From Niveispirillum lacus (GTDB lineage Bacteria; Pseudomonadota; Alphaproteobacteria; Azospirillales; Azospirillaceae), in contig NZ_NOXU01000031.1 of NCBI RefSeq assembly GCF_002251795.1, positions 682,001 to 746,000 of the forward strand: DNA of 64,000 nt, read 5' to 3'. Each line of letters starts with the position of its first letter. Within the stretch, counting starts at the first letter, position 1. Shown here in pieces: positions 416 through 26,315 of this stretch. The notes under the pieces are model-generated. The model had not been told where the DNA came from and made no database searches. It worked only from the letters and a program-made list of their open reading frames with translations. The translations under genes were made by a program, and so were the position numbers.

Positions 416-1174
416 TTATGTGAAATTCAATCTAATAACACCGACCAAAAGCCATTGCTCTGGACGACGTGAGTGCGTTCCCATCGCAAAAGCCATTCCA
501 TTTCTCGGGTATTCTTCCCCGAATGTGACTTCCATACTTCTTAGTGCCTCCTGTTCCCCTTTGTCATGTCTTCTGCGATAAAAAGTAGCGGCTGTCTCCC
601 AGTCGTCACAAGTGGCTTTGTGTGATTTTCCGTCAGAATCTTTCCAGTCAAAATGAAAAGCGAATGGGCACGGTTCCAATGCCTCTAAGTCAGGATCCAG
701 GAGGGATTTTTGCCTAGCCGCTTCCTGATATGCGATGCGTTCTCTTTCAATTTGAGTAACACTCTTTCTTTTATAAAAGAACTTTACAGTTTCTGGTCTA
801 ATTAACGCTAACGTCATGCCGTGGCTGGCAGCTTGGTCCGTGGAGTTCATTATTATGCGGTTTAGGAAAATAGCTCGATCCCGCTCAGGCATGATTTCAC
901 ATGATTTGATCGTATCCTCCTGAACCCTTCTACTTTCCTTGCGTCGATCGTCAGGGCCGGGTGCAATCCAATCATATTCGATCCACTGCCATCTTCTGAA
1001 ACCCTCTTGGAGACGGCGAAAGTGTATAGGGTACTGACGACGCCATTCTCCTTGTAGCGTCACACCTGCACAACAAACCGTCTCTCCATGTTTCTGGCCA
1101 ACATGGGGTAGAGCCTTTACTAATATGACAACTCTTTCACGCCCGCTTTTCTGAAATCCATGTACTATGGACAT
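416..1174 (-). CDS. uncharacterised 252-residue protein coupled to DUF488 gene, possible dual OB-like domain
   Basis: I do not recognise a characterised function. The N-terminal segment, about residues 15-55, reads VVILVKALP, then GETVCCAG, then GEWRRQYP. That pattern of a short strand, a Cys-Ala-Gly turn and an aromatic/Arg strand resembles small beta-barrel (dual OB-like) domains predicted to bind nucleic acid; this is a weak inference. The middle is rich in charged helices, and the C-terminus carries HSRRPEQWLLVGVIRL. The gene begins inside the 3' end of the DUF488 gene (38-base overlap, different frame), so the two are very likely translated together. A GTG at residue 15 is an alternative start. 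Base composition is clearly more AT-rich than the surrounding core genes, which suggests acquisition by transfer. Confidence 0.7.
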   Translation of the reverse strand: MSIVHGFQKSGRERVVILVKALPHVGQKHGETVCCAGVTLQGEWRRQYPIHFRRLQEGFRRWQWIEYDWIAPGPDDRRKESRRVQEDTIKSCEIMPERDRAIFLNRIIMNSTDQAASHGMTLALIRPETVKFFYKRKSVTQIERERIAYQEAARQKSLLDPDLEALEPCPFAFHFDWKDSDGKSHKATCDDWETAATFYRRRHDKGEQEALRSMEVTFGEEYPRNGMAFAMGTHSRRPEQWLLVGVIRLNFT

Positions 1175-1646
1175 TCCTTACCTGCCTGCTAAGGCCGTGT
1201 CTGACGCCTAAGTGGAAAATCGGCACGGTAATCTTATCAGAAATAGCTTCAGCGACAATGCTTCTATGGCATTCAGAGTGACTGCGCTCGTAGCACAGCA
1301 AACAAGCACCGCCTTTCTCAACGTGCTGAACTGCAAGCGATAAATCTCTCTGGGCTGCCACTGATTTCATATGTTCATTAAAAATATCTTTAAATTTTTT
1401 ATAGTCACCGGCTCGCGCAGCTTCACGGCCTGCCTTTGGGTCACCTAATCCACGAAGATGAATGTACTCTATGCCTGCGTCAGCTAATGCCTCGGAAAGG
1501 GCCTTTTTTGCGAATCCCTTTCTTCGCGATATGGGAAGTTCTCTAATGTCTATAATGCGCTCCACCGAGGCGGTTTTGAGCGTGGCAATGAAATCCGCTA
1601 TGTCAGCGGATTCATATCCTATCGTCGCTAGTCTGATTTTATCCAT
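1137..1646 (-). CDS. DUF488 family protein
   Basis: This is a DUF488-family protein of 169 residues. The hallmarks are visible: the N-terminal strand RLATIGYES (residues 5-13), the IIDIRELPISRRKGF segment (31-45) and the C-terminal LLCYERSHSECHR motif (116-128), whose Cys118, Glu120, Cys126, His127 and Arg128 are the conserved cluster of the family. The biochemical role of DUF488 is not settled; members often sit in accessory and defence-like gene pairs. I placed the start at the ATG of MDKIRL. A longer version starting at 1703 adds about 19 residues that do not look like the family. It is the first gene of an AT-rich two-gene unit and overlaps the next gene by 38 bases. Confidence 0.8.
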   Translation of the reverse strand: MDKIRLATIGYESADIADFIATLKTASVERIIDIRELPISRRKGFAKKALSEALADAGIEYIHLRGLGDPKAGREAARAGDYKKFKDIFNEHMKSVAAQRDLSLAVQHVEKGGACLLCYERSHSECHRSIVAEAISDKITVPIFHLGVRHGLSRQVRNVHSTWISEKRA

Positions 1647-1944: not shown

Positions 1945-2253
1945 TCACGCCCTATCCCGTTCATGCTCCATATAAGCCCGCAGCACCCCGTTCATCCGCG
2001 TCAGATAGCCGCCGCCCTTCGACTTGAAGAACTCCAGCACATCGGCATCCACGCGCAGCGACACGGCAACCTTGTTCCTTGGCTCCACGCGGCGGGCGGC
2101 GTCGAACCATGTCGCGTCGGCCAGGGGGGCGGCGTCGGGGTCTTCGGCGACGGCGCGGGCGATGGCGGCGTCATCCATGTCGCGCAGCGCCGACAGGTCA
2201 GGTAAGGTCCGGTTCGGGTCCGGCAACCGCCGCGTAATAGGCTTTTCGTTCAT
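1945..2253 (-). CDS. brnA: BrnA antitoxin (type II toxin-antitoxin)
   Basis: A 102-residue antitoxin of the BrnA family. The C-terminal third reads NKVAVSLRVDADVLEFFKSKGGGYLTRMNGVLRAYM in effect: a short ribbon strand followed by two helices, the DNA-binding ribbon-helix-helix fold that dimerises, neutralises BrnT and represses the operon. The N-terminal half is an acidic, Asp/Ala-rich linker with DAAIARAVAEDPDAAPL typical of BrnA. It follows the toxin gene and overlaps it by 56 bases, the unusual toxin-first order that is normal for brnTA. Regulation is probably autorepression at the upstream promoter (2598-2628), which carries palindromic sequence. Family assignment is confident; activity is inferred. 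Confidence 0.88.
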   Translation of the reverse strand: MNEKPITRRLPDPNRTLPDLSALRDMDDAAIARAVAEDPDAAPLADATWFDAARRVEPRNKVAVSLRVDADVLEFFKSKGGGYLTRMNGVLRAYMEHERDRA

Positions 2254-2497
2254 CCTCGTTGGCCTTTCTTGCCGAAATCAGGCGAATGGCGTCACCGCGC
2301 GGGGTCCAGACGACCGCCAGGACCAAATCCGCCACCACGCCATAGGTCACGAACCGTTCCTCGCCATAATCCTGCCGCCGGTCGGGGCGGTCGAATGTCG
2401 GCTGGTCCCAGATATACAGCGCCCATGCGAAATCAACCTTGTGCTTGGCGATGTTCGCGGCGCGTTTGTTCTCGTCCCACTCGAACGCTGGCGGCAT
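2198..2497 (-). CDS. brnT: BrnT ribonuclease toxin (type II toxin-antitoxin)
   Basis: A 99-residue BrnT toxin, a RelE-like small ribonuclease that arrests translation until bound by BrnA. The family signature is intact: FEWDENKRAANIAKHKVDF at residues 5-23, the DRRQDYGEERFVTYGVV strand region, and the terminal IRLISARKANEDERKAYY motif with its catalytic and structural Arg/Lys residues. There is no truncation or missing motif, so the toxin could be active. It lies first in the operon, immediately downstream of a clear promoter in the recG-brnT gap, and overlaps brnA. Such pairs usually serve stress response or stabilisation of the local DNA. Confidence 0.9.
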   Translation of the reverse strand: MPPAFEWDENKRAANIAKHKVDFAWALYIWDQPTFDRPDRRQDYGEERFVTYGVVADLVLAVVWTPRGDAIRLISARKANEDERKAYYAAVAGPEPDLT

Positions 2498-2642: not shown

Positions 2643-4745
2643 TTACCCCGACCGCAGATACTTCACCGCCGCGTCCCGCTCAAACAAATACAGCAGCGTC
2701 CGTAACGCTTTGCCCCGTTCCGTCTCCAACTCCGGATCGCGGGTGATGATCAGCTTCGCATCATCGCGCGCCACGGCCAGCAGTTCGCCATGCACCGCGA
2801 TATCGGCCAGCCGGAATTCGGGGATGCCGGATTGTTTCGTGCCCAGCATTTCGCCGGCACCGCGCAGTTCCAGGTCTTTTTCGGCGATGATGAAGCCGTC
2901 TTCGGTGTCTTTCATCACCTGTAGCCGCTGTCGCGCCACCTCGCCCAATGGTTGGTAATAGAGCAGCAGGCAGGTGCTGGCCCCGGTGCCGCGCCCGACG
3001 CGGCCACGGAGTTGGTGGAGTTGGGCGAGGCCGAAACGTTCGGCATGTTCGATGACCATGATGGTGGCTTCGGGCACGTTTACGCCCACCTCGATCACCG
3101 TGGTGGCGACCAGGACGTCCAGGCGGCCTTCGGCGAAATCGGCCATGACCTTGTCCTTGTCCGGCCCCTTCATCTTGCCATGGATCAGGCCCACGCGGTC
3201 GCCCAGCCGTTCCACCAGGGTGGCGTGGCGGTGGGTGGCGGCGGCCAGATCGACCTGTTCGCTTTCTTCCACCAACGGGCACACCCAATAGATGCGCTGG
3301 CCCGACGCGATGGCGCGGGAAAGGCCGCCCGCCACCTCCTCCAACCGGTCGGCATGCATGACCACCGTTTTCACCGGCTGCCGACCCGGTGGTTTTTCAT
3401 CCAGGCGCGACACATCCATGTCGCCATAGACGGTCAGGGTCAGGGTGCGGGGGATGGGGGTGGCGGTCATCACCAGCGTGTCGACCCCGCGTCCCTTGGC
3501 CGCCAGTTGCAGGCGCTGGTGCACGCCGAACTTATGCTGTTCATCAATCACGGCGATGGCCAGATCGGCGAACATCACCTCTTCCTGGAACAGAGCGTGG
3601 GTCCCGACCAGAATGTCGATCTCCCCCGCCGCCAGCCGCTCCAGCAAGGCGGCCCGCGCCTTGCCCTTGTCCCGCCCCGTCAGGACGGCCATGCGCACGC
3701 CCGCCGCTTGGCAGAGCGGGGCCAGGGTTTCGGCATGTTGGCGGGCCAGGATTTCGGTGGGGGCCATCAGCGCTGCCTGTGCCCCGGTTTCGACGGCGTT
3801 CAGCATGCACATCAGGGCCACGATGGTCTTGCCGCTGCCCACATCGCCCTGCAACAGGCGCAGCATGCGCGACGGCTCCGCCATGTCGGCGTAAATCTCC
3901 GCGAGCGACCGTTCCTGCGCGCCCGTCAGGCGGTAGGGCAGGGCGGCTGCGACGGCGGCACGCATGCGTCCATCGCCCTGGGTCACCCGGCCCGACAATT
4001 TGCGCTGCTGGGCCCGGACCAGGACCAGCGCCAATTGGTTGGCGAGCAGTTCATCAAAGGCCAGACGTTGGCGCACGGGGCCCAGCGGGTTGATATCCGC
4101 CTCATCCACCGGATGGTGCAGGCGGGTCAAGGCGCTGTGCCAATCCGGCCAGTCCCGCGCCCGCAGCCAGGCCGCATCCTGCCATTCGGGCAACTGCGGC
4201 GCACGGGTCAATGCCGCCTGGATGGCGGTGCGCAGCGGCTTGGGGTTCAACCCGCCCGTCAGGGGATAGGTTGGCTCCGTCGCTGAGGGTGGTGCCCCTT
4301 CATCGGCGGGGGCGGCATGGTCGGGATGGGCGATCTGCAAATGGTTATTGTAATATTCCGCCTTGCCGGAGACGGTGATCTTGCTGCCCACGGGCAGCTT
4401 CTTTTCCAGCCAGTCGCCCTTGATATGGAAATAGACCAGATCCATCGACCCCGTATGGTCGGTACAGCGGATGCGGTAGGGGCGGCTGGGGGTTAGCGAT
4501 GGCATATGCCCATCCACCCGGACCGTCAGCACCACATGCCGCCCGTCCGGCGCCTCGGCAATGCTGGGCACCTGGATACGGTCCACCACGCCCACGGGCT
4601 TGTGCCACAGCAGGTCCACCACATGCGGGCCGGCCAGCTTTTCCGCCAGCTTGCCAAGGCGCGGGCCCAGGCCGGGCAGGCTGGTCACGGGGGCGAACAG
4701 GGGAAACAGGATGGCAGGGCGCAAGGGCTTGACCCTATCTGACAC
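2643..4745 (-). CDS. recG: ATP-dependent DNA helicase RecG
   Basis: RecG is the branch-migration helicase that regresses stalled replication forks and processes Holliday junctions. The 700-residue length matches the family. The N-terminal wedge/OB domain covers about residues 20-150 (SLPGLGPRLGKLAEKL and GSKITVSGKAEYY are recognisable). The helicase core follows, with Walker A GDVGSGKT at 300-307, Walker B in the DEQH form at 401-404, motif III TATPIPRTL, and the C-terminal motifs ATTVIEVGVNVPEA and QLRGRVGRG. The C-terminal RecG wedge-contact helices end at YLRSG. It is divergent from sdhE across a 74-base gap, an arrangement common in alphaproteobacteria. No anomalies. Confidence 0.97.
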   Translation of the reverse strand: MSDRVKPLRPAILFPLFAPVTSLPGLGPRLGKLAEKLAGPHVVDLLWHKPVGVVDRIQVPSIAEAPDGRHVVLTVRVDGHMPSLTPSRPYRIRCTDHTGSMDLVYFHIKGDWLEKKLPVGSKITVSGKAEYYNNHLQIAHPDHAAPADEGAPPSATEPTYPLTGGLNPKPLRTAIQAALTRAPQLPEWQDAAWLRARDWPDWHSALTRLHHPVDEADINPLGPVRQRLAFDELLANQLALVLVRAQQRKLSGRVTQGDGRMRAAVAAALPYRLTGAQERSLAEIYADMAEPSRMLRLLQGDVGSGKTIVALMCMLNAVETGAQAALMAPTEILARQHAETLAPLCQAAGVRMAVLTGRDKGKARAALLERLAAGEIDILVGTHALFQEEVMFADLAIAVIDEQHKFGVHQRLQLAAKGRGVDTLVMTATPIPRTLTLTVYGDMDVSRLDEKPPGRQPVKTVVMHADRLEEVAGGLSRAIASGQRIYWVCPLVEESEQVDLAAATHRHATLVERLGDRVGLIHGKMKGPDKDKVMADFAEGRLDVLVATTVIEVGVNVPEATIMVIEHAERFGLAQLHQLRGRVGRGTGASTCLLLYYQPLGEVARQRLQVMKDTEDGFIIAEKDLELRGAGEMLGTKQSGIPEFRLADIAVHGELLAVARDDAKLIITRDPELETERGKALRTLLYLFERDAAVKYLRSG

Positions 4746-4819: not shown

Positions 4820-5095
4820 ATGATGATCGATCTTCCCGACGCCGACCTGTCCCCCCGCCGCAAGCGCCTGATCTTCCGCAGCGACCATCGCGGGACCAAG
4901 GAGATGGACCTGCTGTTGGGCAGCTTTGCGCGCAAACATATCGCGACGATGGACGAAGCGATGGTCGACCGGTTCGAGGTGCTGTTGGAAATGTCAGACC
5001 CCGATCTCTATCACTGGATCACGGGCCAGGAACCCACCCCGCCCGAATGGGATGACGCGCTGATGGACATGCTGAAGGCGCATCGGTATCGGTGA
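4820..5095 (+). CDS. sdhE: FAD assembly factor SdhE (succinate dehydrogenase assembly factor 2)
   Basis: A 91-residue SdhE/Sdh5 protein (formerly DUF339), the chaperone needed for covalent attachment of FAD to the succinate dehydrogenase flavoprotein. The signature RRKRLIFRSDHRGTKEMDLLLG occupies about residues 13-34 and contains the conserved Arg-Gly patch that contacts the flavoprotein. The second half (LEMSDPDLYHWITGQEPTP) is also typical. It lies between divergent recG and the co-directional mfd, a conserved alphaproteobacterial neighbourhood. The start ATG is doubled (4820 and 4823); either could be used. A palindromic repeat follows the stop. Confidence 0.93.
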   Translation: MMIDLPDADLSPRRKRLIFRSDHRGTKEMDLLLGSFARKHIATMDEAMVDRFEVLLEMSDPDLYHWITGQEPTPPEWDDALMDMLKAHRYR

Positions 5096-5146
5096 GGCTG
5101 TTACGGTAACGAGTGGGCGATAGGGTTTAAGTCGTCTTTAACATGC

Positions 5147-5231
5147 TTTCCCCGCGAATGCGGGGAGCCAGGGGGCCACAGGCCCGACCGTTGGTCCCAT
5201 CGGCCCCTGGACCCCCGCTTTCGCGGGGGAG
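5147..5231. repeat. cloverleaf-type palindromic intergenic repeat
   Basis: Between sdhE and mfd lies a structured element built of three stems. The left small hairpin is CCCCGC-GAAT-GCGGGG (about 5150-5165). The right small hairpin is CCCCCGC-TTTC-GCGGGGG (about 5212-5229). A longer closing stem pairs CCAGGGGGCC (about 5168-5177) with GGCCCCTGG (about 5202-5210). The nested design, with opposite-sense copies of the same GC-rich arm, is that of REP/BIME-like repeats found in many alphaproteobacterial intergenic regions. It may also stop transcription downstream of sdhE. Only one copy is seen in this window. Confidence 0.6.
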
Positions 5232-5341
5232 GCACGTTTTGGCGATTGGAAGCATTGTGCCCTCTGTCGCCTGATCCCCTTTTGTTCCGGTACATCCTGC
5301 GCTATACCCGCCCTGTCGCGCCCAAGCCGAAGTCAGCCCCC

Positions 5342-8300
5342 ATGACCATGATTCCCACGCCCGATATCGCGCTCAACCTGGGCCATCCGCGCCGCCTGCT
5401 GCTGTCCGGCGCGCCGGACGGGCAGGATGCGCGCCTGCTGGCCGCCCTGGCCAAGCGCGGGGGATCGGCGGGGTTGCTGCATATCGCCAGCGATGATGCG
5501 CGCGCCGCACGGCTGGCCGATGTCGTATCGTTCTTCGCGCCGGATGTGGAGGTGCTGCATTTCCCGGCCTGGGACGTGCTGCCCTATGACCGCATCTCCC
5601 CCAATGGGGAAATCGTGGCCCAGCGCATCACCACCATGACCCGGCTGCTGCGCGCCAATGCGGGCAAGCCGTTCCTGGTGCTGACCACCGTCAACGCCGT
5701 GGTGCAGAAACTGCCGCCACGCCTTGCCTTCCGCAATGCCAGCTTTGCCGGCAAGGTGGGCGCCCGCATCAATGTGGCGGAGCTGCAGCGCTTCCTGTCG
5801 CAGAATGGCTATGTCCGGGCGCAGACAGTGCGCGAGCCGGGGGAATTCGCCATCCGGGGCGGTATCATCGACCTGTTCCCGCCCGGCAGTGGCGAGGCGC
5901 TGCGCCTGGACCTGTTTGGCGATGACCTGGACGGGGTGCGCAGCTTTGATCCCATGACCCAGTTGACCGTGGAAAAACGCGACGGGTTCCTGCTGACACC
6001 CATGTCGGAAGTGTTCCTGGACGAAATGTCGATCCAGCGCTTCCGTACTGGTTATCGGGAGCATTTCGGCGCGGTCATGGATGATGATCCGCTGTATGAG
6101 GCGGTCAGTGCAGCACGCAAACATGCGGGCATGGAACATTGGTTGCCCTTGTTCCACAGTTCCATGGAAACCCTGTTCGATTATCTGCCTTATGCGTCGG
6201 TGACGCTGGACCCTAATGTCGAACAGGCCCGCGACGAGCGGTTGGAGCAGATCCAGGATTTCTACAATGCCCGCCGGACCATGGTTGAGGCGGAGAAAAA
6301 ATCCGGCAATCCGGCCTATAAGCCCATACCGCCCTCGCTCCTGTTCCTGGATAGCGACACGTTCGACCGGCATCTGGCCGTGCGCGCCGTGGCGCAGCTT
6401 TCGCCCTTCGCTGCCATCGAAGGGGAAACGTCCAACACGGATATGGTCGATGGCGGCGGTCGCAAGGGCCGCGACTTCGCTGATGCGCGTGTCCAGTCCG
6501 GCGTCAATGTCTATGACGTGCTGCGCGAGCATATTGAGGCGCTGACCCGCGACGGTCGGATGGCGGTGATTGCCGGTTACACGACCGGTTCACGCGACCG
6601 TCTGCTGTCGGTGCTGAAGGAACATGGGCTGACGCGGCTGAAGGCTGTGGATACCTGGGCCGAGCTGGGCACCCTGGACAAGGGCACCACGGCGCTGGCC
6701 GTCCTGCCGCTGGACCATGGGTTCACGGCCCCCGGTCTGGCCGTGATCACCGAACAGGATATTCTGGGCGACCGCCTTGTCCGCGCCGGCTCCAAAAAGA
6801 AGCGCCGCAACGCCAACTTCATTGCCGAGGCGGCGTCCCTGAACCCGGGCGATTTCGTCGTGCATATCGACCATGGCATCGGCAAATATGACGGGCTGGA
6901 AACCCTGACCGTTGGCGGTGCCCCGCATGATTGCCTGCGTATCCTCTATGATGGCGGCGACAAGCTGTATGTGCCGGTAGAGAATATCGAGGTCCTGTCC
7001 CGTTATGGCAGCGAGGAGGCGGGTGCAACGCTGGACAAGTTGGGCGGGGCCGGCTGGCAGTCGCGCAAGGCCCGCGTCAAGCGCCGCTTGAAGGACATGG
7101 CCGACGCCCTGCTGCGCATCGCCGCCGAACGCGCGCTGCGCCAGGCCGATGCCGTGCCGATCCCGGATGGCGCCTGGGACGAATTCTGCGCCCGTTTCCC
7201 CTATGCCGAAACCGACGACCAGCTTCGTGCCATCGATGATGTGATCGAGGATATGGGCTCGGGCAAGCCGATGGATCGCCTGATCTGTGGCGATGTCGGT
7301 TTCGGAAAGACGGAAGTGGCCCTGCGCGCCGCCTTTCTGGCCGTGATGGCGGGCAAACAGGTGGCCGTGGTCGTGCCCACCACCCTGCTGGCACGCCAGC
7401 ATGCCCGCACGTTTGAGGCGCGGTTTGCGGGCCTGCCCGTCCGGATCGGGCAATTGTCGCGCATGGTGACGACCAAGGATACCAACCTGACCAAGCAGGG
7501 GGTGTCCGACGGCACCGTCGATATCGTCATCGGCACCCATGCCCTGCTGGGCAAAAACCTGGATTTCAAGCGCCTGGGCCTGGTCATCGTGGACGAGGAA
7601 CAGCATTTCGGCGTGAAGCAGAAGGAACGGCTGAAGGAATTGCGGGCCGATGTGCATGTGCTGACCCTGTCGGCCACGCCCATCCCGCGTACCCTGCAAC
7701 TGGCCTTGTCGGGCGTGCGCGAATTGTCGGTCATTGCCACGCCGCCTGTGGACCGGCTGGCCGTTCGTACCTTCGTCCTGCCCTTTGATCCCGTGGTGAT
7801 CCGCGAGGCCATCCTGCGCGAACATCACCGGGGTGGGCAGAGTTTCTATGTCTGTCCGCGCGTGGAGGATCTGGACAAGGTGCGGGTGCGGCTGGAAGAG
7901 CTGGTGCCCGAGGTGAAGCTGATCACCGCCCACGGCCAGATGGCGGCGACAGAGTTGGAGGACGTGATGACGGCCTTCGACGATGGCAAGTATGACGTGC
8001 TGCTGGCCACCAACATCATCGAAAGCGGCCTGGACATCCCGCGCGCCAACACCATGATCGTTCACCGCGCCGACCTGTTCGGTCTGGCCCAGCTCTATCA
8101 GATCCGGGGCCGCGTGGGCCGCTCCAAGGTGCGGGGTTATGCCTACCTGACCTATCAGCCCAAGACGGTGCTGTCGGCCACGGCGCAGCAGCGTCTGCAT
8201 GTGCTGGAGACGCTGGACAGCCTGGGGGCGGGTTTCCAACTGGCCAGCCACGACATGGACATCCGTGGTGCGGGTAATCTGCTGGGCGAGGAACAATCCG

Positions 8301-9928: not shown

Positions 9929-10702
9929 ATGTCCAGGAGAACAAGCATCAGCGACATTTCTGATTACCGTAAATTGTGTGCTGAGGCTGCTGAGAAGGAT
10001 AGTATTTTCGCCACTTTCCGTAATCATCCAGTTTACACATCTATCGTTGAGACGGTAAATGGCGAGGCTGGTGCTCAGTATGCTACAGTTGCAATTAATA
10101 GATTTCCTATAATAGCAAAACATTTGGATGAGCTTAGGCGCAATGACCTTCACGGTGGGCCACAAATGTTCCGATATAGTGATATCGGGGCATTCTCGCC
10201 AACGACTCTACGCTATATTAAATTTTCAGTCGACATGCGGGAAATGTTTGGCGACCTCGATGGTATGCGTATTGCGGAAATTGGTATCGGATATGGTGGA
10301 CAATCTCGTATCCTGCGTTCTCTATTCAAGATAAAATCATATGATCTCTTTGATCTACCTGAACCTCTGCTGCTTGCCCGGCGATATTTGGGTATGTTTG
10401 GTTTGGAAAATGCTAATTTCTTCGATATTGATGCTGGGGAATTCGGACCGTATGATCTTGTGATCAGTAATTACGCGATCAGCGAGGTCGAGAAATCGGT
10501 TCAAGATAAATATATTGACAAGGTTATATTAAAATCAGCACGAGGTTTTGTGGTGTGTAATCGGGAATTCTTCAAATACTCTTATCCTGGGTTTTTGTAT
10601 GACCCCGTTGAATTCTGCAGAAAGATCCCAGGAGCAAGCCAATCACCGGACTGGCGCGATGAGATCAGCACTAACCGTTTAATATTCTGGCCACATCCAT
10701 AA
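9929..10702 (+). CDS. putative sugar O-methyltransferase (NanM-like)
   Basis: A 257-residue SAM-dependent methyltransferase. The glycine-rich SAM loop IAEIGIGYGGQSRIL sits at about residues 115-129, followed by an acidic second strand (YDLFDLPE) and a conserved ISNYAISE motif. The N-terminal extension with NHPVY and FSPTTLRYIKF is typical of the putative sugar O-methyltransferase family that decorates surface polysaccharides. The substrate is unknown. I chose the ATG at 9929 rather than an upstream TTG (9899) because the ten extra residues do not resemble the family. The gene is strikingly AT-rich and stands alone between the ispD relic and transketolase, so it is probably horizontally acquired. 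A strong terminator follows. Confidence 0.8.
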   Translation: MSRRTSISDISDYRKLCAEAAEKDSIFATFRNHPVYTSIVETVNGEAGAQYATVAINRFPIIAKHLDELRRNDLHGGPQMFRYSDIGAFSPTTLRYIKFSVDMREMFGDLDGMRIAEIGIGYGGQSRILRSLFKIKSYDLFDLPEPLLLARRYLGMFGLENANFFDIDAGEFGPYDLVISNYAISEVEKSVQDKYIDKVILKSARGFVVCNREFFKYSYPGFLYDPVEFCRKIPGASQSPDWRDEISTNRLIFWPHP

Positions 10703-10714
10703 GAAGTGAAGATA

Positions 10715-10753
10715 ACAACAGCCCCTGGCGGGATATCACCCAGGGGCTGTTGT
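10715..10753. terminator. terminator between methyltransferase and tkt
   Basis: A 14-bp stem, ACAACAGCCCCTGG (10715-10728) with its complement at 10740-10753, and an 11-base loop. It separates two convergent genes and could act in both directions. Confidence 0.8.
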
Positions 10754-10783
10754 CATCACATGCTGCAGCAGGATGAAACAGGC

Positions 10784-12772
10784 TTACAGCCGTTCCTTCG
10801 CCGCCTTGACAATGGCATCGGCAGTGATGCCGAAATGCTGGTACAGTTCCTGGTAAGGCGCGCTCTCGCCGAAGCCGGGCATGCCGATAAACACGCCCTT
10901 CTCTCCGATCCAGCGGTCCCAGCCAAAGCGGACCATGGCTTCCACACCGATGCGCAGCCCATCGCCCAACACGGCCTTCTGATAGGCTTCGGACTGTTCA
11001 GCGAACAGTTCCCAGGACGGCATGGACACCAGCGCCGTGGGGATGCCCTCGGCTTCCAGCTTCTCGCGCGCGTTGAAGGCGATCTCCACCTCCGACCCGG
11101 TGGCCAGCAGGGTCACTTTGCGGGGACCGGATGCTTCCCGCAGGACATAGGCGCCCTTGGCGGACAGGTTCTCGTCCGTGTGCTCCACACGCATGGTAGC
11201 CAAATTCTGACGGGTCAGCGCCAGCACGCTGGGCCGCGTCTTGGCGTCCAGGGCAATTTCCCAGGCTTCTGCCGCTTCCACGGCGTCGGCCGGGCGCAGG
11301 ACCAGCAGGTTGGGGATGCAGCGGAGCGCCGGGATATGTTCCACGGGCTGGTGTGTCGGGCCGTCTTCGCCCAGGCCGATGCTGTCATGGGTCATCACAT
11401 GGATGACCCGCTGCTTCATCAGCGCACCAAGGCGGATGGCCGGGCGGCTATAGTCAGAGAAGGCCAGGAAGGTGCCGGAATAGGGGATCACGCCGCCATG
11501 CAGGGCCATACCGTTCATGATGGCGGCCATGGCATGCTCACGCACGCCGTAATGGACGTAACGGCCATCCCAGCTATTCTTCTGCACGGCCTTGGACAGG
11601 GCCTTGACGCGGGTATTGTTCGACCCGGTCAGGTCGGCCGAGCCGCCCATCATCTCCGGCACCAGCGGGACGATCACGTCCAGCGTGTTGCCCGATGACT
11701 GGCGGGTGGCGATCTTGGGCTTGGTCTCCGACACGGCCTTCTTATGGGCGTGCAGGGCAGAGCGGGCCTCGGCCGGCAGGTCGCCGGCAATGGCGGCCTT
11801 GAAGGCCAGACGGTTGGGCGACCGCGCCAGACGCTTGACCCAGGCATCGACGGTCGGGTGACCGCGGTCGCCGAAATGGCGCCACGCCTGCAGGATGGAT
11901 TCCGGAATCTCAAATGGCGCATGCGGCCAGTTCAGGGCCTTGCGTGCGCCCTCGATCTCGGCAGCACCCAGCGGGCTGCCATGGCTGCCGGCGGTGTTAG
12001 CCTTGGTGGGTGCACCATAGCCGATGGTGGTGCGACACGCGATCAGCGACGGCTTGTCCGTTAGTTTGGCTGCCGCAATGGCCTGGGCAACCGCCACCGG
12101 GTCATGACCGTCCACGGCGGACACGTCCCAGTTATAGGCGGCATAGCGGGCCTTCACGTCCTCGGTAAAGGACAGGTCAGTGGAGCCATCAATGCTGATG
12201 CGGTTGTCATCCCACAGCACGATCAGCTTGGACAGGCCCAGATGGCCGGCCAGCGAGCAGGCTTCATGGCTGATGCCTTCCTGCAGGTCGCCGTCGCCGG
12301 CAATGACATAGGTCGTGTGATCGACCAGATCGTCACCAAAGCGGGCATTCAGGATGCGCTCGGCCATGGCGAAGCCGACAGCGGTGGAGATGCCCTGGCC
12401 CAGCGGACCGGTCGTCATTTCGATGCCGCGGGCCATGCCATATTCGGGGTGGCCGGCAGTCTTCGCACCCATCTGGCGGAAGCGCTTGATCTCGTCCAGC
12501 GTGATGTCTTCATACCCGGTCAGGTACATCAGGCTGTATTGCAGCATGGAGCCGTGACCCGCCGACAGGATGAACCGGTCGCGGTCGGCCCAGTCCGGGC
12601 GCTTGGGATCGAACTTCAGGAACTGCGTGAACAGGACGGTCGCGACGTCGGCCATGCCCATCGGCATGCCGGGATGTCCGGACTTGGCGGCTTCCACCGC
12701 GTCCATGGACAGGGCGCGGATGGCGTTGGCGAGTTCGGCGTGGGAGACGCCAGCGGTCAGATCGGACGACAT
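10784..12772 (-). CDS. tkt: transketolase
   Basis: Transketolase moves two-carbon ketol units between sugar phosphates in the pentose-phosphate and Calvin pathways, using thiamine diphosphate in the cytoplasm. The 662-residue length is standard. Visible landmarks are SGHPGMPMG (31-39), SAGHGSMLQY (70-79), GPLGQGIS (122-129), the ThDP/Mg motif beginning GDGDLQEG at 159 and ending DDNR at 188-191, the pyrimidine-domain segment HDSIGLGEDGPTHQPVEH, and the C-terminal FGESAPYQELYQHFGIT. It is transcribed alone on the minus strand, with a terminator shared with the convergent methyltransferase gene. No anomalies. Confidence 0.97.
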   Translation of the reverse strand: MSSDLTAGVSHAELANAIRALSMDAVEAAKSGHPGMPMGMADVATVLFTQFLKFDPKRPDWADRDRFILSAGHGSMLQYSLMYLTGYEDITLDEIKRFRQMGAKTAGHPEYGMARGIEMTTGPLGQGISTAVGFAMAERILNARFGDDLVDHTTYVIAGDGDLQEGISHEACSLAGHLGLSKLIVLWDDNRISIDGSTDLSFTEDVKARYAAYNWDVSAVDGHDPVAVAQAIAAAKLTDKPSLIACRTTIGYGAPTKANTAGSHGSPLGAAEIEGARKALNWPHAPFEIPESILQAWRHFGDRGHPTVDAWVKRLARSPNRLAFKAAIAGDLPAEARSALHAHKKAVSETKPKIATRQSSGNTLDVIVPLVPEMMGGSADLTGSNNTRVKALSKAVQKNSWDGRYVHYGVREHAMAAIMNGMALHGGVIPYSGTFLAFSDYSRPAIRLGALMKQRVIHVMTHDSIGLGEDGPTHQPVEHIPALRCIPNLLVLRPADAVEAAEAWEIALDAKTRPSVLALTRQNLATMRVEHTDENLSAKGAYVLREASGPRKVTLLATGSEVEIAFNAREKLEAEGIPTALVSMPSWELFAEQSEAYQKAVLGDGLRIGVEAMVRFGWDRWIGEKGVFIGMPGFGESAPYQELYQHFGITADAIVKAAKERL

Positions 12773-24172: not shown

Positions 24173-25009
24173 ATGACCCGCACTGTCACTGTCGGCCCGC
24201 TGTCGATCGCCAATGACCGTCCCTTTGTGCTGATCGCGGGCCCCTGTCAGTTGGAGAGCCGTGATCATGCCTTTGCCATGGCGGGAGCCTTATCGGAACT
24301 GACGAAGAAGCTGGGTATCGGCCTGATCTACAAGACCAGCTTCGACAAGGCCAATCGCACCTCGGTCAGTGCGCAGCGCGGTCTGGGCATGGATCAGTCG
24401 CTGCCCATCCTGGCCGATATCCGGGCGACCTTCGGCTGTCCCGTGCTGACCGACATCCACACGGCCGAACAATGCGCGCCCGTGGCGGAAGTGGTGGATG
24501 TGCTGCAGATCCCCGCCTTCCTGTGCCGGCAGACCGACCTGCTGCTGGCAGCGGGTGAAACGGGCAAGCCCATCAATCTGAAGAAGGGGCAGTTCCTGGC
24601 GCCCTGGGACATGAAGAATGTCGCCGCCAAGATCGTATCCACCGGCAACCACAACATCCTTCTGTGCGAACGTGGGGCCAGTTTCGGCTACAACACATTG
24701 GTCAGCGACATGCGGTCCCTGCCAATCATGGCGCAGACCGGATATCCCGTCGTCTATGACGCCACCCATTCGGTACAGCAACCGGGCGGGCAGGGGACCA
24801 GCAGCGGCGGGCAACGGGAGTTCGTGCCCGTTCTGGCCCGTGCCGCCATCGCCATTGGCGTGGCGGCTGTGTTCATGGAAACGCATGAGAACCCCGACTG
24901 TGCCCCCAGCGATGGCCCCAATATGGTGCCGCTGGATCAGATGGAAGGCGTGCTGGGCACGTTGCTGGCTCTGGACCGCATCGCCAAGGCGAACCCGGTG
25001 GTTATGTAG
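24173..25009 (+). CDS. kdsA: 3-deoxy-8-phosphooctulonate synthase (KDO 8-P synthase)
   Basis: KdsA condenses phosphoenolpyruvate with arabinose 5-phosphate to make KDO 8-phosphate for the lipopolysaccharide core. The 278-residue length is typical. Recognisable segments are [12 protein letters not shown] (17-28), [20 protein letters not shown]-like strand, [61 protein letters not shown] and [11 protein letters not shown]. The ATG at 24173 is preceded by AAGGAG at ideal distance; earlier ATGs are not needed. Two small AT-rich genes follow it before the acyltransferase, interrupting the usual kdsA-eno neighbourhood. Confidence 0.97.
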
Positions 25010-25122
25010 GATTGTAGTTTTTTATATTCAGCTCTTGAGATTTAGTCTACGTAATATTATCTTTTTGAGTACAGGCTAAGAAAAGTTAATCTTTACTATA
25101 ATTTTTACTATTGGAGGTCGCA

Positions 25123-25293
25123 ATGAGTAACGTTAAGCAGTCTGCTCTTGATGAGATATATAATATTGCTCTGGACGCCAAAAGTAAAATTGGTGACCAA
25201 GATTTTATCGCGAACGCATTAGATAAAATCATTTCAGCCGCACGGTATGCTCAACCGGTAAATAATTATAAAAAAGTTAATCAAGATGGTTGA
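25123..25293 (+). CDS. small AT-rich hypothetical protein (first of a coupled pair)
   Basis: A 56-residue protein with no recognised family. The ATG is preceded by a strong GGAGG ribosome site (25114-25118), supporting real translation. The sequence is amphipathic helical (ALDEIYNIALDAKSKIG, FIANALDKIISAARYA) with a polar C-terminal tail; there is no signal peptide or membrane segment. Its last codons overlap the start of the next gene by eight bases (ATGGTTGA), indicating coupling. Base composition is much more AT-rich than kdsA or the acyltransferase, a sign of foreign origin. Function unknown. Confidence 0.6.
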   Translation: MSNVKQSALDEIYNIALDAKSKIGDQDFIANALDKIISAARYAQPVNNYKKVNQDG

Positions 25294-25537
25294 TGCTATT
25301 GTGGTTGAGGTCGCGTCATCTGGTTCTAAAAATGGTATTGGTTTATATAGATTTGTTTCGCTCCCGAGAGTCGGGGAGATGATTACGATTGCTGGAAAAT
25401 TGGATTTAGAGCATTATTTGGTAAGCACTGTCGAACACTTAGGTGTGGATGTGAGGCCTACGACTGTAGCTGCGTCTGTTGCCCTTGAGGAGGGTGCTAA
25501 AGTTATAATTTATGTATCCGTTTGTTCTGCTATTTAG
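25286..25537 (+). CDS. small AT-rich hypothetical protein (second of a coupled pair)
   Basis: An 83-residue protein of unknown function, probably all beta strand: AIVVEVASSG, the YRFVSLPRVGEMITI segment, YLVSTVEHLGV and AKVIIYVSV alternate with turns. The SLPRVGE-then-VEH pattern occurs in small uncharacterised proteins that may form a compact barrel; this is inference. It starts within the end of the preceding gene (eight-base overlap), has similar AT-rich composition, and ends just before an apparently ordinary core region. No catalytic residues, signal peptide or membrane helix are evident. Confidence 0.6.
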   Translation: MVDAIVVEVASSGSKNGIGLYRFVSLPRVGEMITIAGKLDLEHYLVSTVEHLGVDVRPTTVAASVALEEGAKVIIYVSVCSAI

Positions 25538-25670
25538 CGGGGGCGATTTCGTTTCCTCGTAAATCCTATTCGTTCAGTAGTTTGACAAATTCTCCCCATT
25601 TCCTCACCATCGGCGTATAACGAAAGGTGGGGTCACCAATCCCGCTGGTGGTGTGAGGAAGACGCAATCC

Positions 25671-26315
25671 ATGTCCGTTCCGTCCCTGGGCCCCCGCAAT
25701 GACCGGCGGGGCGGCCCAATTTCCCGTTTTATTGGTCGGATGGGCCTTCGCCTCCTGGGGTGGCGCATTACGGGTGCCTTCCCGAACCTGGAAAAATTCG
25801 TCGTTATCGGCGCCCCGCATACGTCCAACTACGATTTCTTTGTCGCCATGGCCACCATCCTGGCCACCGACCTGCGTATCCATATCCTGGGTAAGCACAC
25901 TTTGTTCTGGGGACCACTGGGTCCAATCATGCGCTGGTGTGATATCCTGCCCGTGGACCGTCGTTCGGCACATGGTGTTGTCGGTGATTGCGTGGCTGCC
26001 TTGAACGCCGCCGAACGGATGGTGGTCGGTATCGCCCCAGAGGGCACACGTAATCCGAAGCCGGGCGCCGGATGGAAGACGGGCTTCTGGCATGTTGCCC
26101 GACAGGCCGGCGTTCCGATCATACCTGTCGCGCTGGATTATGCGGCGCACACGATCCGCATTGGGGAGCCGCTGGCGACAACAGAGAGTATCGAGGCGGA
26201 TTTTGCCTTGCTTTCCGCCTTCTATGCAGGCGTGCAGGGGGCGAAGCGTCAGCTTCCCGACATCATACCGGTGGGCAATGGGCGGCCTGCCGACCCTGTG
26301 GGCACGGCGGGGTAG
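25671..26315 (+). CDS. 1-acyl-sn-glycerol-3-phosphate acyltransferase-like protein
   Basis: A 214-residue glycerolipid acyltransferase of the PlsC superfamily, acting at the inner membrane. The catalytic HX4D motif is APHTSNYDFF with His50 and Asp55. The acceptor-binding motif is APEGTRNP near 127-134, and the later strand VPIIPVALDY is also typical. It is shorter than PlsC proper and lacks strong membrane helices, closer to the small soluble-looking acyltransferases of alphaproteobacteria, so the acceptor (lysophosphatidate or another lipid) is uncertain. The ATG at 25671 is preceded by a GAGGAAG-like site; a GTG at 25653 is less likely. Confidence 0.85.
   Translation: MSVPSLGPRNDRRGGPISRFIGRMGLRLLGWRITGAFPNLEKFVVIGAPHTSNYDFFVAMATILATDLRIHILGKHTLFWGPLGPIMRWCDILPVDRRSAHGVVGDCVAALNAAERMVVGIAPEGTRNPKPGAGWKTGFWHVARQAGVPIIPVALDYAAHTIRIGEPLATTESIEADFALLSAFYAGVQGAKRQLPDIIPVGNGRPADPVGTAG

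Follow-up and report, generated by a model that had tools for sequence, protein, structure and literature searches.

The two overlapping genes analysed here, one encoding a DUF488 protein and the other a 252-residue partner, are an added member of PDC-M19, a candidate system that is catalogued in PADLOC but unexplained. Both proteins match profiles of this one system and their genes are adjacent, so the pair is not new, and since it is already among the candidate systems it is not a new kind of system either; the assignment rests on profile matches and adjacency. A survey of 168 distinct places established the partner as a conserved, nearly obligate companion of one DUF488 subclade, and evidence from phages, plasmids and chromosomes supports the pair being accessory and mobile. 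We give an even chance to its being a mobile conflict module of the phage-defence type, with the OB-fold partner as the putative binder of nucleic acid and the DUF488 protein as the putative enzyme. In the available text of PMC11514479, the PDC entries of PADLOC are 'phage defence candidate' genes; the 2022 article on the PADLOC server (PMC9252829) does not use the term PDC in its main text. The literature searched contained no occurrence of the term PDC-M19 and no experiment, anti-phage or other, on a pair of this type.

Results

The gene pair in its locus

The window, that is, the whole 64-kb stretch of Niveispirillum lacus DNA that was analysed, contains the features listed in Table 1. The two minus-strand ORFs overlap in different frames as originally described; an alternative in-frame ATG at position 1703 would lengthen the DUF488 protein to 188 aa. 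Both genes have a GC content of 46-47% and a GC3 of 0.42-0.44, against 66% and 0.82 for the nearby recG, and most 1-kb steps of the window have a GC of 0.57-0.67, which bears out the AT-richness reported for the pair. To the left lies a gene that, from its translation, we take to encode an FAD-dependent oxidoreductase, and to the right, past the BrnA and BrnT genes, lie presumably recG and mfd, also named from their translations. The toxin-antitoxin pair that had been seen alongside was identified by Pfam as BrnA/BrnT, though its GC3 (0.82 and 0.73, respectively) is host-like and the AT-rich patch is not shared by it. Because of this difference in composition from the AT-rich pair, BrnT/BrnA was probably inserted independently into the interval from the oxidoreductase gene to recG.

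Table 1. Features of the locus (positions in the window)
Feature	Position	Strand	Description
Partner gene	416-1174	-	ATG start, 252 aa, PDC-M19B family
DUF488 gene	1137-1646	-	169 aa, PDC-M19A-type, DUF488-N3a subclade
DUF488/partner gene overlap	1137-1174	-	38 bases, different frames
AT-rich patch with the pair	301-1950	none	150-base bins 0.30-0.51 GC
BrnA antitoxin gene	1945-2253	-	Pfam BrnA_antitoxin, E 4.8e-16; neighbour, outside the module
BrnT toxin gene	2198-2497	-	Pfam BrnT_toxin, E 1.5e-25; neighbour, outside the module
Partner D76-x-R78-x-E80-S81 motif	932-949	-	Invariant in 82 aligned sequences
Partner D191-W192-E193 motif	596-604	-	Among 82 sequences, D191 and E193 without exception and W192 in 90% or more
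DUF488 C118-Y-E120-R-...-C126-H127-R128 motif	1263-1295	-	Candidate active site

Scans of the locus for promoters and terminators gave nothing above shuffled sequences, no flanking repeats of note were found around the pair, and no phage-like ORF was recognised by eye beside it. There are no tRNA genes in the window, so no integration site could be defined. Two further low-GC stretches, at 10001-11000 (GC 0.475) and 25001-26000 (GC 0.466), are possibly other accessory inserts.

The partner is a predicted OB-fold protein

The partner matched PADLOC profile PDLC04508 (PDC-M19B) over residues 12-247 of 252 (E 4e-35) and had no match at E 1 in Pfam or NCBIfam. Its vague OB-like pattern, noticed in the original prediction, took a clearer form in an AlphaFold2 model built on an 82-sequence alignment (pLDDT 94.2, pTM 0.89), which predicts an N-terminal OB fold at residues ~10-94; the protein is thus a predicted OB-fold member of PDC-M19B and not an unrelated common enzyme. 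The modelled barrel matches RecO, PriB, Rim1 and bacterial SSBs with Z scores of 7.2-8.2, which is at the edge of what the comparison tool calls common arrangements, and polymerases and other chains are among the rows listed. Most of the structural matches listed are, to our understanding, proteins with OB domains. The second half is predicted to be beta-rich with additional helices. Weaker, tandem-OB matches were to HIN DNA-sensor domains: three HIN rows align to the partner over 145-161 residues (Z 7.3-7.5, rmsd 5.6-6.8) and the remaining HIN rows over only about 90, which makes a second OB in the C-terminal half likely.

For the partner, Foldseek gave a single PDB match below 0.001, the telomere complex CST (E 3.2e-4), together with further telomere and ssDNA-binding proteins with low TM-scores, and among viral proteins it matched baculovirus LEF-3 (E 1.4e-4). 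Searches of the PDB with the window's partner and DUF488 protein found nothing by sequence and nothing significant by profile (best E 0.23 and 0.62 for the two proteins). Residues P23, E31, C34, A36, R46, P49, D76, R78, E80, S81, D191 and E193 are invariant among the 82 partner sequences.

The DUF488 protein has a conserved candidate active site

The DUF488 protein of the window matched Pfam DUF488 (E 3.3e-28; 99.2 bits, cut-off 22.2), the 'active DUF488-N3' subclade DUF488-N3a (37.7 bits, cut-off 27) and PADLOC profile PDLC04505 (PDC-M19A; E 7.2e-28). The M19A profiles are matched only in their C-terminal DUF488 half (positions 148-285 of 294 and 88-223 of 234); the extra N-terminal region of ~150 residues is present in the DUF488 proteins of loci L003 and L004 and missing from that of the window. 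In a subgroup of loci (L003-L005 and L170-L180), the DUF488 frame has about 160 or more residues ahead of the domain. The extensions of L003 and L004, the two that were scanned, had no Pfam match above the cut-off, and in PADLOC the L003 protein shows similarity to a profile for type I specificity subunits (E 1.5e-8).

The Cys/Glu/Cys-His-Arg cluster, described at the outset as intact, is so in the window, and its residues C118, E120, C126, H127 and R128 are invariant among 80 aligned DUF488 sequences. The predicted structure (pLDDT 91.1) is Rossmannoid, with C118 modelled at a strand end and R128 at the start of the next helix. Its best structural matches were CbiL (Z 9.7; 122 residues aligned, rmsd 3.4), laforin (Z 8.9; 116 aligned, rmsd 2.8), PH0725, which we take to be diphthine synthase (Z 8.7), and SsoPTP (Z 8.7). 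As CbiL ties with the laforin scores, phosphatase-like and methylase-like folds are not separable for DUF488. By Foldseek, the best PDB match of the model had a non-significant E of 7.2e-3. Membership of DUF488 in the rhodanese-phosphatase superfamily was considered and not confirmed; it is DUF4326 that the available text of PMC9503650 assigns there. The literature searched yielded no activity for DUF488.

The two genes are linked nearly everywhere

With the partner as bait, class genomes (385), plasmids, phages, named genomes and viral contigs were searched. Once identical partner sequences were removed, 168 distinct places were left, counting the window; among the material that went into this count were 12 fetched plasmid and phage records, 80 loci retained from 264 in named genomes, and 41, 22, 1 and 12 loci on viral contigs. 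The contig searches ran on smaller partner alignment sets (A3-A6), the 21-partner set A1 being too divergent. A DUF488 gene adjoins the partner in 160 of the 168 places, far more often than chance would give, so the arrangement is far from private to this locus. The DUF488 gene is upstream and co-directional in 131 of the 160, convergent in 28, and downstream and co-directional in one; the linkage thus survives rearrangement, whether the genes are co-directional, convergent or reversed. Of the eight places without an adjoining DUF488 gene, five lie where a contig ends; the remainder comprise Sulfolobus plasmid pSOG2, a truncated copy among transposases, and locus L031, where transposase-like ORFs were seen by eye upstream.

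Divergence of the two proteins is correlated. Their pairwise distances over 156 pairs gave an r of 0.80, compared with 0.11 or less in 1000 permutations, a result that rests on distance correlation, the tree being of the partner only. On that tree, made of 93 of the 156 rows (of which the Saccharolobus row was added by hand) after thinning by identity, gene order needs three changes, and at least two of them are forced by well-supported branches.

Coupled translation of the two genes had been claimed from their overlap. In the window such coupling may occur, and a purine-rich stretch lies 5' of the partner ATG; elsewhere, 112 of 140 co-directional pairs overlap when the start codon closest to the DUF488 stop is taken, the 140 rows including a few near-duplicate viral contigs. 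The claim does not extend to the family as a whole: the 28 convergent pairs mean that coupling cannot be essential.

Two small, overlapping, mobile genes that occur on plasmids and, in the window, adjoin BrnT/BrnA might alternatively form a toxin-antitoxin-like addiction pair, one protein being harmful and the other neutralising it; one Gordonia record even calls the DUF488 product 'HipA toxin', to which its note adds a question mark. We regard this as improbable. Pfam and NCBIfam, searched at E 1, gave no toxin or antitoxin domain for either protein, and convergent gene order, as in those 28 pairs, is unusual for toxin-antitoxin modules. Moreover, among 15 class genomes with a DUF488 match (58 searched), the partner was present within ~1.5 kb on either side in only five and not found in ten, although several of the latter loci sit near contig ends. 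DUF488, often found like this without a nearby partner, is therefore broader than the pair.

The pair is patchily distributed and mobile

Carriers of the pair range from bacteria (proteobacteria, actinobacteria and cyanobacteria) to the archaeon Saccharolobus. Counting N. lacus itself, the partner was matched in 11 of the 385 class genomes and the pair in 2 of 11 genus genomes; further partner matches came from 26 plasmid records and 7 phage records, all of Gordonia. Another Niveispirillum record (L026) has a partner 82% identical to that of the window, and the two loci have the pair in common and no flank. In a congener (L247) the oxidoreductase gene and recG occur in the same order with nothing like the window's 2.4 kb between them, and nine other relatives show no similarity to the window's locus over the 3-6 kb that follow downstream of recG, apart from recG itself. 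The GC content of the pair is below that of its flanks in 61 of 65 genome loci (mean difference -8.5 points), the 65 being those of 80 with enough flank and a DUF488 gene. The original description of the pair as an accessory module is borne out by these observations.

A function in general nucleic-acid repair or nucleotide metabolism, with the pair merely often transferred, would fit the likeness of the predicted OB fold to RecO and PriB, and DUF488, present in 6 of 14 control genomes, is indeed broader than the pair. Such a function is nonetheless improbable in view of the pronounced patchiness just described and of the repeated carriage on phages and plasmids.

On Massilia and Pseudomonas plasmids (L017 and L024), metal- or copper-resistance genes surround the pair. 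A locus from an assembly titled as an Exiguobacterium profundum MAG (L052) has a partner that groups with those of alphaproteobacteria on the tree; because of this, the assembly is probably mislabelled or chimeric.

Defence and mobility genes beside the pair

Neighbouring genes, two per side and called by a simple composition rule, were scanned at 34 of the 80 genome loci, picked for their long contigs, and compared with control stretches of the same contigs at a distance of about 80 kb, or 50 kb in a single instance. The matches listed for the 136 neighbour proteins included N6_N4 methylase (4), resolvase (3), phage integrase (3), ResIII (3), DUF559 (2) and one CBASS cyclase; for the 133 control proteins there was one methylase and no integrase or resolvase among the matches listed, which are the best 25 families by frequency per scan, so single control integrases may be missed. 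The number of PADLOC families matched was 121 for the neighbours and 80 for the control, these being counts of overlapping profiles, not of proteins. The control matches listed comprised mad3 (5), mad8 (3) and single cases of a methyltransferase, DpdJ, a BrxHI-type protein, a type II nuclease and PycC, and the Pfam families listed beside the pair were mostly metabolic or transport genes. The excess of defence and mobility genes beside the pair over the matched control is modest.

For the defence or nucleic-acid role that had been suggested, the PDC-M19 candidate listing and the predicted OB fold are favourable; the enrichment in defence islands that was to accompany it came out as a small excess at the 34 loci, with PADLOC matches in the control as well.

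At locus L157 an HsdR gene lies directly upstream of the pair. Three type III cases (L052, L059 and L085) are probably one cassette, because their ORF sizes and places are nearly equal. The large neighbours of L148, L166 and L059 gave nothing in the PDB at E 0.001.

ParB-methyltransferases, phages and archaeal plasmids

A ParB-methyltransferase gene lies within 2.5 kb of the pair in 23 of 40 alphaproteobacterial viral loci, and in 21 of the 23 it is upstream on the same strand; the 40 include near-duplicates and the counts come from pair-carrying contigs only. In three of the 23 (L110, L115 and L118), of which two (L110 and L115) supplied the search HMM, an ORF that we take to be terminase-like is found close downstream of the pair. 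Among the viral neighbours, PHROGs matches included DNA methyltransferase (15 of 128) and ParB (12 of 128); the 128 are drawn from 150 listed proteins, without L108, L123, L132, L133 and six small ORFs, and the list itself is without the last eight of its 46 loci. Where the pair sits between the ParB-methyltransferase fusion gene and the presumed terminase-like ORF (L110, L115, L118 and L063), the position has the appearance of an accessory phage slot.

These arrangements bear on the main rival to the conflict module, namely that the pair serves the mobile element itself and, with the phage ParB-methyltransferases, modifies, reads or protects the element's own DNA in an anti-restriction or packaging-linked role. 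The abundance of the pair on plasmids and viral contigs and a ParB-DUF488 fusion in Saccharolobus agree with such a service. Elsewhere, however, a ParB-methyltransferase neighbour is rare: it is present at 5 of 78 genome loci and, in the convergent group, at 1 of 21 viral loci. None of the 11 N-extended loci has one, and none of the 23 remaining loci, which include three copies of the window's own locus. The window has none either, and no phage-like ORF was recognised by eye beside its pair. With the redundancy and selection of the 40 viral loci also weighing against it, service to the element is possible but somewhat unlikely. Against the conflict module itself, the ParB-methyltransferase and terminase-like neighbours suggest that the pair is expressed in the lytic phase or at packaging and not for defence by lysogens.

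The immunity repressor gene of Gordonia phage Nymphadora is followed, on the same strand, by the partner gene, which shares a single base with the repressor gene's end. No test of the Nymphadora genes concerned, 42/43, was found in the literature searched.

On Saccharolobus plasmid pBEU9E1 (L241), which comes in addition to the 168 places, the ParB-DUF488 fusion gene stands directly before the partner frame. The order there (2933-3985 and 4855-5352) is ParB-DUF488 fusion, partner and then a 166-aa ORF, in which an E-x-D...E-x-K pattern was seen by eye; this ORF, possibly a PD-(D/E)XK nuclease, found nothing in the PDB. Sulfolobus plasmid pSOG2 carries relatives of the partner and of the 166-aa ORF only, with no DUF488 gene detected. 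An archaeal ParB-fold protein with a DUF488-HTH fusion binds CTP, according to the available text of PMC12704722.

Discussion

The reading of the pair as a mobile conflict module, evenly balanced in our judgement, would have the partner use its predicted OB fold to bind an invader's nucleic acid in single-stranded, unwound or modified form and, perhaps within a physical complex, either present the bound nucleic acid to the DUF488 protein or license that protein. DUF488 would then be a Rossmannoid enzyme that depends on cysteine and works on nucleotides or on the ends or modifications of nucleic acids; as the effector, it would thereby block the invader or the infected cell. Counted in favour are the PADLOC matches, the linkage, the correlated divergence, the predicted OB fold, the likeness to DuOB described below, the ParB fusion, the position next to a phage repressor, the HsdR case, the neighbours and the low GC. 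Counted against are the small size of the defence-gene excess, a control that has PADLOC matches too, the occurrence of the partner without a detected DUF488 on pSOG2, and a phosphatase likeness of DUF488 that is tied with the likeness to CbiL.

That one DUF488 subclade almost always travels with an OB-fold partner turns the function of DUF488 into a concrete question about a partnership. The outcome is a handful of residues, complexes and phages to examine, among them the Nymphadora pair; the laboratory host of that phage, Gordonia terrae 3612, already serves in prophage-defence assays, as described in the available text of PMC6426606.

Comparison with known systems

The DUF488 model resembles protein-tyrosine and dual-specificity phosphatases such as laforin and SsoPTP (Z 8.5-8.9), with a cysteine at a strand end and an arginine at a helix start. 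The catalytic signature of protein-tyrosine phosphatases is C-X5-R. This loop is missing from DUF488, which has C118-X9-R128 instead, both residues being invariant among the 80 sequences.

Like the Nymphadora copy, CarolAnn 43/44 and lambda RexAB are next to an immunity repressor, but their proteins are unrelated by the descriptions given in the available text of PMC6426606. There, CarolAnn 43/44, cotranscribed with the repressor, are shown to defend against other phages, and a role as an ion channel in the membrane is proposed for gp43.

PDC-M45 is the PADLOC candidate system that has Pfam DuOB as M45A and DUF488 as M45B and M45C. The window's partner had no match to Pfam DuOB at E 1, and this profile matched 7 of the 82 partners weakly (best E 0.0021), that of Sulfolobus scoring 18.7 bits, under the cut-off of 27; nor were DuOB proteins picked up by the partner profile in a plain HMM search. 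Profile-profile comparison aligned the two families colinearly with a probability of 90.9 and E 1.1e-6 for 21 partners, and with 75.6 and E 2.4e-5 for 82 partners, the DuOB set comprising nine sequences only. The partner is therefore probably a distant relative of DuOB, to judge by these alignments, and is not filed here as a DuOB member.

Seven plasmid loci with DuOB genes were fetched. Two of the DuOB proteins were tested and matched PDC-M45A, the DUF488 proteins next to them matching PDC-M45B/C. DuOB is followed by two DUF488 genes in the Agrobacterium, Rhodovastum and Allochromatium loci and by DUF488 and DUF4326 in two Citrobacter loci and one from Acinetobacter; in the seventh, from Moraxella, the neighbours carry no product names. 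The DUF4326 protein of these loci had no match in PADLOC; in the available text of PMC9503650, DUF4326 is proposed to process phosphates of ADP-ribose. Among loci L187, L189 and L190, the Allochromatium one is near Csm6 and Csx16, a Citrobacter one is near CcdAB, and the Acinetobacter one is near a RelE/ParE toxin.

A reading wider than the conflict module, and one that we consider unlikely, would unite PDC-M19 and PDC-M45 in a single nucleic-acid-surveillance superfamily. A tandem-OB sensor, shaped like the HIN DNA sensors of animals, would hand foreign or aberrant nucleic acid to DUF488, whose cysteine chemistry would act on phosphates or modifications of nucleic acids. The sequence or methylation context would come from ParB-type modules, which are fused in archaea and, as ParB-methyltransferases, lie upstream in phages.

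Both PDC-M45 and the pair of the window consist of an OB-type protein and an adjoining DUF488 gene, and their partner and DuOB profiles align; the PDC-M45 loci fetched differ in having a third gene, either a second DUF488 or DUF4326, and the window's partner falls under the DuOB cut-off. PDC-M19 and PDC-M45, two separately listed candidate defence systems around which ParB-type domains recur, are thus probably one kind of system.
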